The position numbers and the translations under genes are program-made. Positions 20,252-23,975 of a stretch of 64,000 nt of DNA are shown here, piece by piece. The stretch is taken from assembly GCF_031128465.2 (NCBI RefSeq), contig NZ_CP155618.1, forward strand, positions 2,365,501-2,429,500, in the 5' to 3' direction. The notes below the pieces were generated by a model. It had not been told where the DNA came from and did not search any database. It saw only the letters and a program-made list of their open reading frames with translations. Every line of letters starts with the position of its first letter. The first letter of the stretch is position 1. Source of the DNA: Mariniflexile litorale. GTDB lineage: Bacteria; Bacteroidota; Bacteroidia; Flavobacteriales; Flavobacteriaceae.

Positions 20252-21649
20252 ATGAATACTAAATACATTGATTTAATTAATCAATCTTTTTACTTTCCTC
20301 AAGAAGAATTTGATCTAAACGACAAGCACTTAGAGTTTCATGGCATAGACCTTATGGGTTTAGTTGAAAAATATGGAGCACCTTTAAAATTTACGTATTT
20401 ACCACAAATTTCAAACAACATTCATAGAGCTAAAGGATGGTTTGAAAAAGCTATTAAAGCGAACAAATATAAGGGTAAATACAATTATTGTTATTGTACT
20501 AAAAGTTCTCATTTTAAGCATGTACTCGATGAAGCTTTAAAAAACGATATACATATAGAAACATCATCTGCTTTTGATATTGATATTGTTGAAAGCTTAA
20601 AAGCAGAAGGGAAAATAACCGATAAAACTTATGTAATTAGTAACGGGTTTAAGAGAGATCAATACATTTCTAACTTAGCGAGGTTAATTAATAATGGGCA
20701 CAAAAACTGTATTCCCATTATTGATAATTATGAAGAAATTGATTTGTTATCAAAAGAAATAAAAGGAAAATTTAATATAGGAATTAGAATAGCTTCAGAA
20801 GAAGAACCTAAATTCGAGTTTTATACCTCGCGTCTAGGTATTGGTTACAAAAATATTTTACCTTTTTATAGAAGCCAGATTAAAGAAAACAAAAAAGTGA
20901 AACTTAAAATGCTTCATTTTTTTATCAATACAGGTATTAGAGATAATGCATATTATTGGAATGAGTTAACCAAATGTTTAAAAGTATATACCAGCTTAAA
21001 ACGTATTTGTCCTAGTTTAGATAGTTTAAATATTGGCGGTGGTTTTCCTATTAAAAATTCTTTGGCTTTTGATTTTGACTATGAATACATTGTGGGTGAA
21101 ATTATCAATCAAATAAAGTTAGTTTGTGAAGAAGAAGAGGTAGAAGTGCCTAATATTTTTACCGAGTTTGGTAGTTTTACTGTTGGTGAAAGTGGTGGAG
21201 CTATTTATGAGGTTTTATATCAAAAACAACAAAACGATCGTGAAAAATGGAATATGATTAATTCATCGTTTATTACTACATTGCCAGATACTTGGGCTAT
21301 TAATAAACGCTTTGTGATGTTGCCAATTAACAGGTGGAATGAAAGTTATGAACGTGTGTTATTAGGAGGTTTAACTTGTGATAGCGATGATTATTACAAT
21401 AGTGAACAACACATGAATGCCATTTATTTGCCAAAATATAATAAAGACAAACCACTATACATTGGTTTTTTTAATACAGGTGCTTATCAAGAAACTATTG
21501 GTGGGTTTGGTGGTTTACAACACTGTTTAATCCCGATGCCAAAACATATATTGATAGATAGGGATGCTGATGGAAATATTACAACAGAGTTATTTAGTGA
21601 ACAACAAAAAAGTGAAGACTTACTTAAAATTTTAGGTTATGACAAATAA
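20252..21649 (+). CDS. speA: PLP-dependent arginine decarboxylase (fold type III)
   Basis: Converts arginine to agmatine. The 465-residue protein shows the PLP lysine in YNYCYCTKSSHF (near residue 75), the phosphate-binding LNIGGGFPIKN, TEFGSFTVGESGG and the second active-site motif GGLTCDSDDYYN, followed by FFNTGAYQETIGGFGG. It is shorter than E. coli SpeA, as is usual for this Bacteroidota group. Substrate choice rests on the company of agmatinase-like and DHS-like genes; diaminopimelate or other basic amino acids are less likely. It overlaps the agmatinase-like gene by 11 bases. Confidence 0.85.
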   Translation: MNTKYIDLINQSFYFPQEEFDLNDKHLEFHGIDLMGLVEKYGAPLKFTYLPQISNNIHRAKGWFEKAIKANKYKGKYNYCYCTKSSHFKHVLDEALKNDIHIETSSAFDIDIVESLKAEGKITDKTYVISNGFKRDQYISNLARLINNGHKNCIPIIDNYEEIDLLSKEIKGKFNIGIRIASEEEPKFEFYTSRLGIGYKNILPFYRSQIKENKKVKLKMLHFFINTGIRDNAYYWNELTKCLKVYTSLKRICPSLDSLNIGGGFPIKNSLAFDFDYEYIVGEIINQIKLVCEEEEVEVPNIFTEFGSFTVGESGGAIYEVLYQKQQNDREKWNMINSSFITTLPDTWAINKRFVMLPINRWNESYERVLLGGLTCDSDDYYNSEQHMNAIYLPKYNKDKPLYIGFFNTGAYQETIGGFGGLQHCLIPMPKHILIDRDADGNITTELFSEQQKSEDLLKILGYDK

Positions 21650-22577
21650 CACGTATGCTGGTATACCAGAAGAATTTGTAAAATTAGAACAATCAAAAAT
21701 TGTTTTAATTCCAGTGCCTTATGATGGAACAAGCACGGTGCAAAAAGGATCTGAAAAGGGGCCAGAAGCTTTTTTGAATGCTTCAAACAACATGGAACTT
21801 TATGATATAGAAACAGATACAGAAGTTTATCAACAAGGTGTTTACTTAGCAGATTTGGTTGAAGATAACACATCACCAGAAGCGTTAATCGATGCTGTAC
21901 ATCAAACAACAAAAAAATATATAAAAAAGAATAAGTTTGTAACCATTTTTGGTGGTGAACATGCTATTTCTATTGGAAATATTCGTGCTTTTAACGAGAT
22001 GTTTCCAAGTTTAACTGTGTTGCATATAGGTGCACATGCCCATTTACGTAAGAGCCATAACGGTACTTCTGTTAATAATACTTGCGCACTGCATGAAGCG
22101 AGCCAAACCACTAACTTAATACAAGTGGGGATTCGTTCGATGAGTGCGATTGAAAAAACAATTGCAGATATTGATAAAACCTATTTTTCTCACGAAATGG
22201 CGGTAGATGATACTTGGATAGATTCAGCCATCGATCAAATGACAGATAATGTATTTATCAATTTTAGTTTAAGTGGTTTAGACCTCTCTATTATGCCAAA
22301 TACAACGTCTCCTTTACCAGGTGGTTTGTTTTGGTATGAAACTTTAGATTTTATAAAACAAGTTTTTGCAGAAAAAAATGTAGTTGGGTTCGATATGGTT
22401 GATTTATGCCCACATGCCAAACAAAAATCTTCAGATTTTGTAGCTGCAAAATTGTATTATAAGATGTTAAGTTATAAATTTATGGATCAAGAAGTAGGAG
22501 ACGATTACGATAATGCTTACGATAATTCAAAACAAAAAAATAACGCAACAAAATTTAACGACGACGATGAGTACTAA
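21639..22577 (+). CDS. Agmatinase/arginase-family protein lacking Asp metal ligands (probable pseudoenzyme)
   Basis: The scaffold clearly belongs to the ureohydrolase family (VLIPVPYDGTST, FGGEHAISIGN, LPGGLFWYETL), and the gene is positioned as agmatinase between SpeA and DHS. The manganese site is dismantled. The family motif DAHxD reads GAHAH (131-135), and the [ST]xDxDxxDP motif reads FSLSGLDLSIMP (209-220), so all four Asp ligands are replaced by Gly131, His135, Ser210 and Ser212. Only His108 and His133 remain. Substrate-side positions also look changed (VVGFDMVDLCP has Asp where Glu is usual). The frame is intact for 312 codons with an extra Asn/Asp-rich tail. Agmatine hydrolysis by this protein is unlikely. 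Confidence 0.85.
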   Translation: MTNNTYAGIPEEFVKLEQSKIVLIPVPYDGTSTVQKGSEKGPEAFLNASNNMELYDIETDTEVYQQGVYLADLVEDNTSPEALIDAVHQTTKKYIKKNKFVTIFGGEHAISIGNIRAFNEMFPSLTVLHIGAHAHLRKSHNGTSVNNTCALHEASQTTNLIQVGIRSMSAIEKTIADIDKTYFSHEMAVDDTWIDSAIDQMTDNVFINFSLSGLDLSIMPNTTSPLPGGLFWYETLDFIKQVFAEKNVVGFDMVDLCPHAKQKSSDFVAAKLYYKMLSYKFMDQEVGDDYDNAYDNSKQKNNATKFNDDDEY

Positions 22578-23544
22578 AGGACCCATATCAAAATTTATAG
22601 AAAAGAACTATTTACATTTTAATGCTGCTGCTTTAGTAGATGCTGCAAAAGGTTACGAAACTCATTTATTAGAAGACGGAAAAATGATGGTAACTTTAGC
22701 GGGTGCAATGAGTACGGCAGAGTTAGGGAAATCGTTAGCAGAAATGATTCGTCAAGATAAAATTCATATCATTTCTTGTACAGGCGCGAACCTTGAAGAA
22801 GATATTATGAATTTAGTAGCGCATAATTCATATAAAAGAGTGCCAAATTATAGAGATTTATCTCCACAAGAAGAAAGAGATTTATTAGATAATCATTTCA
22901 ATCGTGTTACCGATACTTGTATTCCTGAAGAAGAAGCATTTAGACGTTTACAATCGCATTTATTTGATATTTGGAATAAAGCTGATAAATCAGGTGAACG
23001 CTATTTTCCTCATGAATTTATGTATCAAATGATAAATTCTGGTGTTTTAGAACAATATTATGAGATAGACCCAAAAGACTCTTGGATGGTTGCTGCTGCT
23101 GAGAAAAATTTACCTATTGTAGTTCCTGGTTGGGAAGACAGTACCATGGGAAATATTTTTGCTTCTTATTGTATTAAAGGCGAATTAAAAGCCTCTACTA
23201 CCAAAAGTGGTATTGAATACATGATGTGGTTAGCCGATTGGTATCCAAAAAATTCAGGAGGAAAAGGTGTAGGTTTCTTCCAAATTGGAGGCGGAATAGC
23301 TGGTGATTTTCCCATATGTGTTGTGCCTATGCTTTACCAAGATATGGAAATGCATGATATTCCTTTTTGGAGCTATTTTTGTCAGATTAGCGACTCAACA
23401 ACTAGCTATGGGTCATACTCTGGGGCTGTTCCAAATGAAAAAATAACTTGGGGTAAATTAGATATAGATACACCAAAATATATAATAGAAAGCGATGCAA
23501 CTATTGTTGCACCATTAATTTTTGCATATTTGCTAGACCAATAA
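22567..23544 (+). CDS. Deoxyhypusine synthase-family protein (possible homospermidine synthase)
   Basis: A 325-residue NAD-dependent aminobutyl-transferase homologue. The ATG at 22567, overlapping the agmatinase-like gene by 11 bases, gives MSTKGPISKF; upstream in-frame starts lie inside the previous gene. Family features include LAGAMSTAELGK, SCTGANLEEDI, FFQIGGGIAGDFPI and late ITWGKLD, whose Lys matches the catalytic lysine of DHS (WGK). Bacteria lack eIF5A, so such proteins are thought to make homospermidine or related polyamines from putrescine/spermidine. Gene order SpeA-SpeB-like-DHS supports a polyamine role. Confidence 0.85.
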   Translation: MSTKGPISKFIEKNYLHFNAAALVDAAKGYETHLLEDGKMMVTLAGAMSTAELGKSLAEMIRQDKIHIISCTGANLEEDIMNLVAHNSYKRVPNYRDLSPQEERDLLDNHFNRVTDTCIPEEEAFRRLQSHLFDIWNKADKSGERYFPHEFMYQMINSGVLEQYYEIDPKDSWMVAAAEKNLPIVVPGWEDSTMGNIFASYCIKGELKASTTKSGIEYMMWLADWYPKNSGGKGVGFFQIGGGIAGDFPICVVPMLYQDMEMHDIPFWSYFCQISDSTTSYGSYSGAVPNEKITWGKLDIDTPKYIIESDATIVAPLIFAYLLDQ

Positions 23545-23561: not shown

Positions 23562-23975
23562 ATGATACGCAAGATTGTAGATTACAAAAAATTAAATGAA
23601 GATATATTAAATCTTCTTGTGGAAAAGTTTCCTGATGGATACGATGAGGCCGACATTATTTCGTTTAGAAATGCACAAAATGAAATAATTGAAGCTGTCG
23701 AGGTTAGAACCGATGATACTATATATTTGGTAAAAGTGGGTAAACGTCTAGTACAAGCTATGGAAGACTTTGGGGATGACGATGCAGACGTGGCAGAAGA
23801 TGATTTTGAAGAAGTTAAAGTTGACGATCCCGATGCGGATTTAGAAGATGACGACGATGATATTGTAATAAAGAAAGATAGTTCGGAAGATGACGACGAC
23901 AATGATATGGATGACAATGCCGACTCAGATTACGATGAAGATGATGAAGATGATGAAGATGATGACATTGATTAA
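23562..23975 (+). CDS. Acidic-tail protein of unknown function
   Basis: A 137-residue protein with a small folded N-terminus (about 1-67: MIRKIVDYKKLNEDILNLL, an FPDGYDEADIISF segment and a predicted strand YLVKVGKRL) followed by about 65 residues made almost wholly of Asp and Glu. Such tails often bind basic proteins, calcium or polyamines, or compete with nucleic acid; none is shown here. It starts 17 bases after the DHS-like gene and 21 bases before the next small gene, so it is probably part of the polyamine transcript. Confidence 0.75.
   Translation: MIRKIVDYKKLNEDILNLLVEKFPDGYDEADIISFRNAQNEIIEAVEVRTDDTIYLVKVGKRLVQAMEDFGDDDADVAEDDFEEVKVDDPDADLEDDDDDIVIKKDSSEDDDDNDMDDNADSDYDEDDEDDEDDDID

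Follow-up and report, generated by a model that had tools for sequence, protein, structure and literature searches.

A SpeB-like protein lacking the Asp metal ligands of agmatinases is kept in the polyamine operon of Mariniflexile litorale

Introduction

Why does a polyamine operon keep an agmatinase-family gene whose product has lost the residues expected to bind the catalytic metals? This question arises at a locus of Mariniflexile litorale, which we analysed in a window of 64,000 nucleotides (C1:2365501-2429500) from its one-contig genome of 4.52 Mb. In the window, a speA-like gene is followed by a SpeB-like gene, a DHS-like gene and a gene for a very acidic protein, and the first three genes overlap:

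20252..21649, + strand: speA-like arginine decarboxylase, first gene of the operon, 465 aa, overlapping the start of the SpeB-like gene
21639..22577, + strand: SpeB-like (agmatinase family) protein of 312 aa, predicted to be catalytically dead from its motifs, the PDB alignment and the orthologue alignment
22567..23544, + strand: DHS-like gene (homospermidine synthase type), whose ATG at 22567-22569 overlaps the stop of the SpeB-like gene
23562..23975, + strand: very acidic protein of 137 aa without a Pfam match, the next gene after the DHS-like gene

The overlap of speB with both neighbours, pointed out in the first-pass annotation of this DNA, is borne out by the ORF coordinates. We place the probable start of the DHS-like gene at 22567, and its listed ORF is open up to 22513. 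The speA-like protein matches TIGR01273 with 160.8 bits, below the cut-off of 624.1, and PF02784 with 54.6 bits.

Results

Loss of the metal site in the SpeB-like protein

By sequence, the SpeB-like protein belongs to the ureohydrolase family (PF00491, 152.2 bits; TIGR01230, 177.1 bits, cut-off 174.3). It resembles agmatinase SpeB in its whole-length homology, its place by speA, and its GGEH and scaffold motifs, but none of the four Asp ligands remains, and the conserved Glu is lost or changed at two positions. The motifs in the ORF at 21639-22577 read GGEH (His108), GAHAH (131-135) and FSLSGLDLSIMP. Gly131, His135, Ser210 and Ser212 occupy the positions of metal-binding Asp in agmatinases, exactly as the first-pass annotation had read them, from the beginning of residue 131 at 22029 to the end of residue 212 at 22274. 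The positions concerned are as follows:

21960..21962, + strand: His108, the kept His of GGEH (alignments)
22029..22043, + strand: GAHAH (131-135), the former DAHxD metal motif, with D131G and D135H (alignments)
22266..22274, + strand: S-L-S (210-212), the former D-x-D metal ligands (alignments)
22314..22316, + strand: Leu226, position of the conserved Glu of PEPGG in canonical orthologues (orthologue alignment)
22401..22403, + strand: Asp255, position of the conserved Glu of VELCP in canonical orthologues (orthologue alignment)

In the phmmer alignment against the PDB, GAHAH lies opposite DAHSD, DAHTD and DAHLD of 3pzl, 3lhl and 1wog, respectively, and the second motif lies opposite VDMDGID, IDLDVLD and VDVDGFD of the same structures. 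Since both motifs pair with canonical ones, the possibility that the Asp ligands sit elsewhere in the protein is ruled out. The SpeB-like protein also departs from 122 canonical orthologues at other positions that are at least 98% invariant among them, by S109A, H147N, A148T, D169S, A184S, T208N, P216L, G223T, T224S, E226L, L239I and E255D. The Glu residues of PEPGG and VELCP (226 and 255), which we take to have a role in the agmatinase pocket, are thus replaced by Leu and Asp; position 255 is still Glu in one of the six Mariniflexile (L009).

With neither the metal-binding residues of the binuclear site nor the conserved acids of the pocket, the SpeB-like protein should not hydrolyse agmatine. 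The missing catalytic residues, the intact frame and the purifying selection described below are those of a ureohydrolase pseudoenzyme, and they support a protein that, judged by its site, has no agmatinase activity. Automatic annotation misleads here, as the TIGR01230 score would still name the dead protein an agmatinase.

Degenerate SpeB among relatives

Some SpeB match is found in 172 of the 219 genomes of the family that we searched, and a close orthologue (E below 1e-80) in 138. We aligned 134 orthologues, taken from 30 loci, 100 further stretches and four more Mariniflexile; the orthologues of G178, G036, G218, G105, G147, G116, G012 and G035 were listed and stand outside the alignment. 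All six ligands (H-D-H-D-D-D) are present in 122 aligned sequences, 11 are degenerate, and one is a fragment (G066, L136), in which the speB orthologue matched as two pieces with one stop.

The degenerate copies come from 11 genomes in six genera, namely six Mariniflexile, G076, G120 (Aestuariibaculum suncheonense, matched to L184), G115, G138 and G184, and the frame is open in every one. All six sampled Mariniflexile carry the dead form, the other five being 83-90% identical to the M. litorale protein, whose best named matches are from M. sp. AS56, M. gromovii, M. fucanivorans and M. maritimum, corresponding by coordinates to G005, G002, G001 and G003. Among the best 80 named contigs, which overlap with the genome set above, 75 are canonical and five degenerate, all five from Mariniflexile or Aestuariibaculum. 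The four Asp ligands are lost together in the six Mariniflexile, G076 and G120, the last two reading GAHAN and NLN. This loss is common to separate genomes of Mariniflexile and two other genera with an open frame, and a sequencing error or frameshift is therefore ruled out. In G115 and G138, D131 and D210 remain, whereas D135, D212 and the GGEH Glu are gone. G184 retains D131, D210 and D212, with AGER replacing GGEH and with DAHAH in the first Asp motif.

The residue patterns, a FastTree of SpeA and DHS, and the SpeA tree (four label changes) suggest at least three independent losses. The concatenated SpeA and DHS tree is disturbed by the likely exchange of DHS, and L131 has no DHS row in it. 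A single clade of all 11 degenerate genomes is not rejected by the AU test on SpeA (p 0.346), and the SpeB tree unites L053 and L080 (support 0.948).

A putative AguA/AguB route

We searched 223 genomes (the 219 and four Mariniflexile) for AguA with TIGR03380 at E<=1e-40. AguA is present in 35 of them: all 11 with degenerate SpeB, 12 of 122 with canonical SpeB and 12 of 81 without a close SpeB orthologue. At this threshold it occurs in none of the eight orthologue genomes outside the alignment, nor in G066. With the degenerate genomes counted by genus, the comparison is 6/6 vs 12/122 (Fisher p 3.4e-6, kinship uncorrected), and few independent losses, possibly one, stand behind the association. 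Matches above the threshold were left uncounted, in genomes with canonical SpeB (G157 and G173, ~1e-27; G214, 1e-23) and in those without a SpeB orthologue (G220, 1e-25; G221, 1e-28), along with many weaker ones. AguB (TIGR03381, E<=1e-85) adjoins AguA in 21 of the 21 AguA genomes among 70 searched, including all 11 degenerate ones, and four of the 70 have an AguB match of 1e-72 to 1e-74 without AguA (G145, G129, G013 and G107). In M. litorale the pair is located as follows:

C1:3258662-3259690: aguA, adjoining aguB (TIGR03380, PDB matches)
C1:3259754-3260599: aguB, adjoining aguA (TIGR03381, PDB matches)

The best structure match of AguA is 1xkn, named a putative peptidyl-arginine deiminase, and the matches 3hvm, 2jer and 1vkp carry the name agmatine deiminase. 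The GxxHC region is present, with WGFGTLHC opposite WGLGAIHC of 1xkn. AguB matches solved N-carbamoylputrescine amidohydrolases, with hits to 6mg6, named a carbon-nitrogen hydrolase, and to 5h8i. AguA scores 242.2 bits against an equivalog cut-off of 381.8, which is reached by none of the 70 genomes and by one of five matching control genomes; AguB scores 326.0 against 410.25. Since both lie under the NCBIfam cut-offs, their exact activities are putative. The first-pass annotation had suggested that agmatine might be used through agmatine deiminase, and the presence of this predicted pair in all 11 genomes with a degenerate SpeB, M. litorale included, argues for that route.

No second close agmatinase is found in the M. 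litorale genome; its other two PF00491 proteins are distant, scoring 35 and 21 bits on TIGR01230 (cut-off 174.3). The operon holds no second PF00491 gene and thus no catalytic partner of the MetCaCb type.

One of the two distant proteins, HutG-like (L002:1195-2205), has DTHSD, but reads EIDCHAID near the second motif, where one metal ligand may be replaced. The other, a divergent arginase-family protein of 388 aa (L003:1225-2391, minus strand; match G000:C1:1030328-1031038) has VNVDSKFDL and SIDLSSVKG near the motif places, and the flanking ORFs presumably encode GldK and a topoisomerase. An extra agmatinase-like protein, 27% identical to the dead SpeB and found in only one of the six Mariniflexile (G005; L010:1465-2280), keeps GGDH, DAHCD and DMDGFDP.

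We also considered spermidine made via NspC as the end of the route. Of the 28 genomes searched, G184 alone exceeds the NspC cut-off; the matches in G002 and G003 are weak, and M. litorale has none. In G184, aguA and aguB adjoin nspC (L154:3352-7890), next to a gene that we take to encode carboxyspermidine dehydrogenase, and the 4.5 kb stretch around its SpeB contains no DHS. From these two features, the G184 lineage may have switched over to spermidine.

Selection and shifted constraint in SpeB

We compared codon models (GY+F3X4) of the operon genes within Mariniflexile, in a wider clade of nine genomes (the six Mariniflexile, G076 and G120, which form an eight-genome clade, plus G115) and in three sets of nine canonical genomes. 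The omega values are:

SpeB: Mariniflexile 0.060; nine-genome clade 0.064; canonical 0.041, 0.040, 0.044
SpeA: Mariniflexile 0.010; nine-genome clade 0.012; canonical 0.024, 0.032, 0.023
DHS: Mariniflexile 0.012; nine-genome clade 0.011; canonical 0.014, 0.017, 0.014

Constraint on the dead SpeB is looser than on the genes beside it, but the gene is far from neutral. When canonical pairs at a similar SpeA distance serve as reference, SpeB changes 1.6 to 2 times faster relative to SpeA; at SpeA distances of 0.06-0.10, the median SpeB/SpeA ratio is 3.53 (7 pairs) vs 1.75 (69 canonical pairs). As SpeB outpaces SpeA beyond the canonical pairs, its constraint is partly relaxed. Each Mariniflexile breaks 11-12 of 35 near-invariant positions in the motif windows (residues 104-112, 129-145, 207-231 and 250-257) and 3-5 of 72 elsewhere, while the other degenerate genomes break 7 to 16 of these 72. 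The open frames, the low omega and the concentration of Mariniflexile substitutions in the active-site motifs uphold the earlier reading of a pseudoenzyme rather than a broken gene.

The relaxation is uneven along the protein. The stretch that behaves differently from the rest is located at:

22485..22574, + strand: C-terminal acidic tail of the SpeB-like protein, residues 283-312 (divergence comparisons)

In pairs matched on a SpeA distance of 0.08-0.13 (7 clade pairs, all involving G120, vs 421 canonical pairs), the amino-acid differences in the dead clade and in canonical SpeB are:

Residues 1-49: 0.437 vs 0.147
Residues 206-226: 0.259 vs 0.068
Residues 227-260: 0.109 vs 0.089
Residues 261-282: 0.084 vs 0.110
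Tail, residues 283-312: 0.143 vs 0.539 (5th percentile 0.300)

Residues 227-282 as a whole differ by 0.099 in the dead clade and 0.098 in active SpeB. The divergence of the tail relative to the body has a median of 0.59 in the dead clade (range 0.19-1.52; 28 pairs, eight genomes) against 3.20 in canonical SpeB (minimum 1.05; 5819 pairs), where no pair lies at or below 0.59 and 12 lie at or below 1.52. Among 20 canonical copies from near relatives (190 pairs), it is 3.72.

In residues 283-297, same-amino-acid codons differ about as in canonical pairs (0.42 vs 0.46), whereas amino acids differ far less (0.143 vs 0.578), which indicates that the protein itself is held there. In residues 298-309 the same-amino-acid codon difference is 0.16 vs 0.25, pointing to some constraint at the DNA level near the DHS start, and in residues 227-282 it is slightly low (0.40 vs 0.46). 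These codon changes, together with the matching on SpeA distance, counter the idea that the slow tail reflects a younger divergence alone. L053, which completes the nine-genome clade, lacks the slow C-terminal end: once it is included, the mean rises to 0.305 for the tail and to 0.263 for residues 261-282. The eight tail sequences are one clade, and their pairs share branches. In this clade, constraint has moved: the pocket and the N-terminal part are relaxed, residues 227-282 are normal, and the tail is slow. The structural or regulatory role proposed in the first-pass annotation is favoured indirectly, by this shift to the C-terminal end.

The DHS-like neighbour and the g128 operons

The DHS-like protein has the DHS domain (PF01916, 137.9 bits), and its catalytic Lys region reads SGAVPNEKITWGKL opposite SGARPDEAVSWGKI of human DHS. 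The NCBIfam DHS and homospermidine models all score under their cut-offs. Throughout the nine-genome clade, the DHS-like protein carries T117S, G128H, L129F/Y, L175N and V220C (numbering of the 343-aa ORF) at otherwise near-invariant positions. None of these five shifts occurs in the DHS of G138, which also has a degenerate SpeB. The SpeA of the nine genomes breaks no or one near-invariant position.

Among 296 genomes sampled across the phylum, four g128 genomes have the most similar DHS proteins (91-95% identical). The next closest come from other families and classes (up to 87%), and other DHS of the own family reach 77-83%. The four g128 operons (L246-L249) run from speA to DHS to the acidic gene, without speB. 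The nine clade DHS and the four g128 DHS form one branch in the DHS tree (support 99), and a tree that holds the clade together with the family DHS is not rejected by the AU test (p 0.286). Lateral exchange of the DHS-like gene with lineages having SpeB-less operons is likely, not proven, and a link between this exchange and the loss of SpeB is unproven. Among 17 g128 genomes, none has a SpeB orthologue and 14 have AguA (E<=1e-40). Four of the 17, three of them AguA-less and the fourth being G469, hold a distant ureohydrolase of ~365 aa, which has no match in the other 13; the genomes of L246-L249, three without and one with AguA, all hold it.

The 137-aa acidic protein ends in an Asp/Glu-rich tail with tandem GATGAAGAT at 23934-23965. 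Its gene also lies 3' of DHS in L246-L249, and at L131 a similar acidic protein comes after SpeB. It may be a working part of the polyamine operon.

Discussion

We consider it probable that AguA and AguB bypassed the agmatinase step, and that SpeB then became a non-catalytic protein acting via its C-terminal end. The starting point would be an ordinary flavobacterial agmatinase in a speA-speB-DHS operon, whose function was lost in lineages that also hold AguA and AguB, encoded elsewhere on the chromosome and presumably present before the loss. Arginine would be converted by SpeA into agmatine, by AguA into N-carbamoylputrescine, by AguB into putrescine and by the DHS-like enzyme into homospermidine; these activities and this flow are predicted from homology. 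The dead SpeB would be kept as a protein with an intact fold. What function it still has would reside in the C-terminal third and the acidic tail, which most likely dock to a partner. SpeA and the changed DHS-like enzyme of the same operon would be the first candidates. A role as ligand sensor through the former pocket is unlikely given the variation at its positions, and conservation of the C-terminal third and the tail makes protein-protein contact our best guess. The loss of ligands, the presence and co-occurrence of AguA and AguB, the purifying selection and the shift of constraint are observed. Against this explanation stand the twelve genomes in which AguA and intact SpeB coexist, and the scores of AguA and AguB under the equivalog cut-offs.

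Comparable routes exist in other systems. The AguA/AguB route to putrescine, of which AguB of Bacteroides thetaiotaomicron is an example in the available text of PMC10135574, resembles that of Mariniflexile in that AguA and AguB match solved enzymes, but in Mariniflexile the pair is accompanied by a dead SpeB, not by the absence of SpeB. According to the accessible part of PMC9992855, chlorovirus PBCV-1 has a full route of ADC, AIH, NCPAH and homospermidine synthase, and clusters of Pelagibacter and Fonsibacter include AIH, NCPAH and a DHS homologue acting as homospermidine synthase. In two Flavobacterium species the main polyamine is sym-homospermidine (PMC8570120, available text); our literature search found no paper on homospermidine in Mariniflexile.

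One alternative, which we regard as unlikely, is that the protein is irrelevant and the frame is kept only to couple translation of speA to that of the DHS-like gene. The overlap of speB with one of these genes at each end would suit such coupling, as would the small change of same-amino-acid codons in 298-309. A bridge needs an open frame, not particular amino acids, but the amino acids of 283-297 are held while their codons change normally. Moreover, since speA is directly followed by DHS in four g128 genomes, the bridge is dispensable there.

It is likewise improbable that the DHS-like enzyme takes agmatine directly, in the manner of the Thermus caldomycin synthase, with SpeB lost upon the change of substrate and bis-guanidino homospermidine kept. 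The Thermus enzyme CdmS is a DHS homologue that joins two agmatines, after which a ureohydrolase yields homospermidine (PMC10981699, as far as its available text goes). The five shifts of the clade DHS, its grouping with g128 DHS and the absence of SpeB from the operons of these closest relatives are consistent with such a change. However, AguA and AguB in all 11 degenerate genomes would compete for agmatine, the four SpeB-less g128 genomes all hold the distant ureohydrolase and one holds AguA, and the DHS of G138 lacks every shift.

A slowly decaying pseudogene, made redundant by AguA and AguB and drifting without stops so far, is quite unlikely. Its faster evolution than SpeA or DHS and its relaxed pocket and N-terminal part would be expected of decay. 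The frame, however, is open in 11 of 11 copies over six genera. Among the six Mariniflexile, all of which have the loss in common, omega stands at 0.06, well short of 1. The protein is also as conserved as active SpeB in 227-282 and more so in 283-297.

We find it very unlikely that SpeB joins an active ureohydrolase in a mixed oligomer of which it supplies the non-catalytic half. The superfamily offers a precedent in MetCb of metformin hydrolase, a metal-free pseudoenzyme kept as the partner of MetCa in a heterohexamer (PMC11271267, available text). The catalytic relative of MetCb is encoded beside it, whereas the Mariniflexile operon encodes none, the genome has no further PF00491 proteins besides two distant ones that lie outside the operon, and a second agmatinase-like match to the SpeB-like protein exists in one of six Mariniflexile only (G005).

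It is highly improbable that the pocket was remodelled towards a new activity or a new metal site, such as one formed by His108, His133 and His135. His108 is kept in 10 and His133 in all 11 of the 11 degenerate copies, and residue 135 is His in four of six Mariniflexile; in the other two Mariniflexile, and also in G076 and G120, residue 135 is Asn. Variation extends to residues 222-224, to 212 (S or N) and to 210 (S, C or N), whereas conservation would be expected of a rebuilt site.

Returning to the AguA/AguB bypass with a retained non-catalytic SpeB, a more specific version is conceivable, and we put it forward tentatively. The dead SpeB might be a regulator or scaffold that binds SpeA or the new DHS-like enzyme through its C-terminal third and acidic tail and sets their activity, catalysis having been swapped for control after AguA and AguB took over. 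Trypanosomatid prozymes of AdoMetDC and DHS are dead members of polyamine-enzyme families with a non-catalytic role. Their partner is an active paralogue from their own family, while no close active paralogue of the dead SpeB was found in the M. litorale genome. An arginase-like protein of Trypanosoma brucei has reportedly evolved without the binuclear Mn cluster; it belongs to the eukaryotic arginase branch and is not known to sit in a polyamine operon.

Pseudoenzymes of the ureohydrolase superfamily are thus already known, and a dead agmatinase in a polyamine operon is a variant of these. Among open-licence papers, surveyed mostly by listing, we found no report of such a case. The locus offers a small natural experiment on an enzyme turning into a non-enzyme, in which the bypass by AguA and AguB, the loss of catalytic residues, the change of a neighbour and the shift of constraint can all be placed among close relatives. 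Why dead metabolic enzymes persist thereby becomes directly testable in named marine species.
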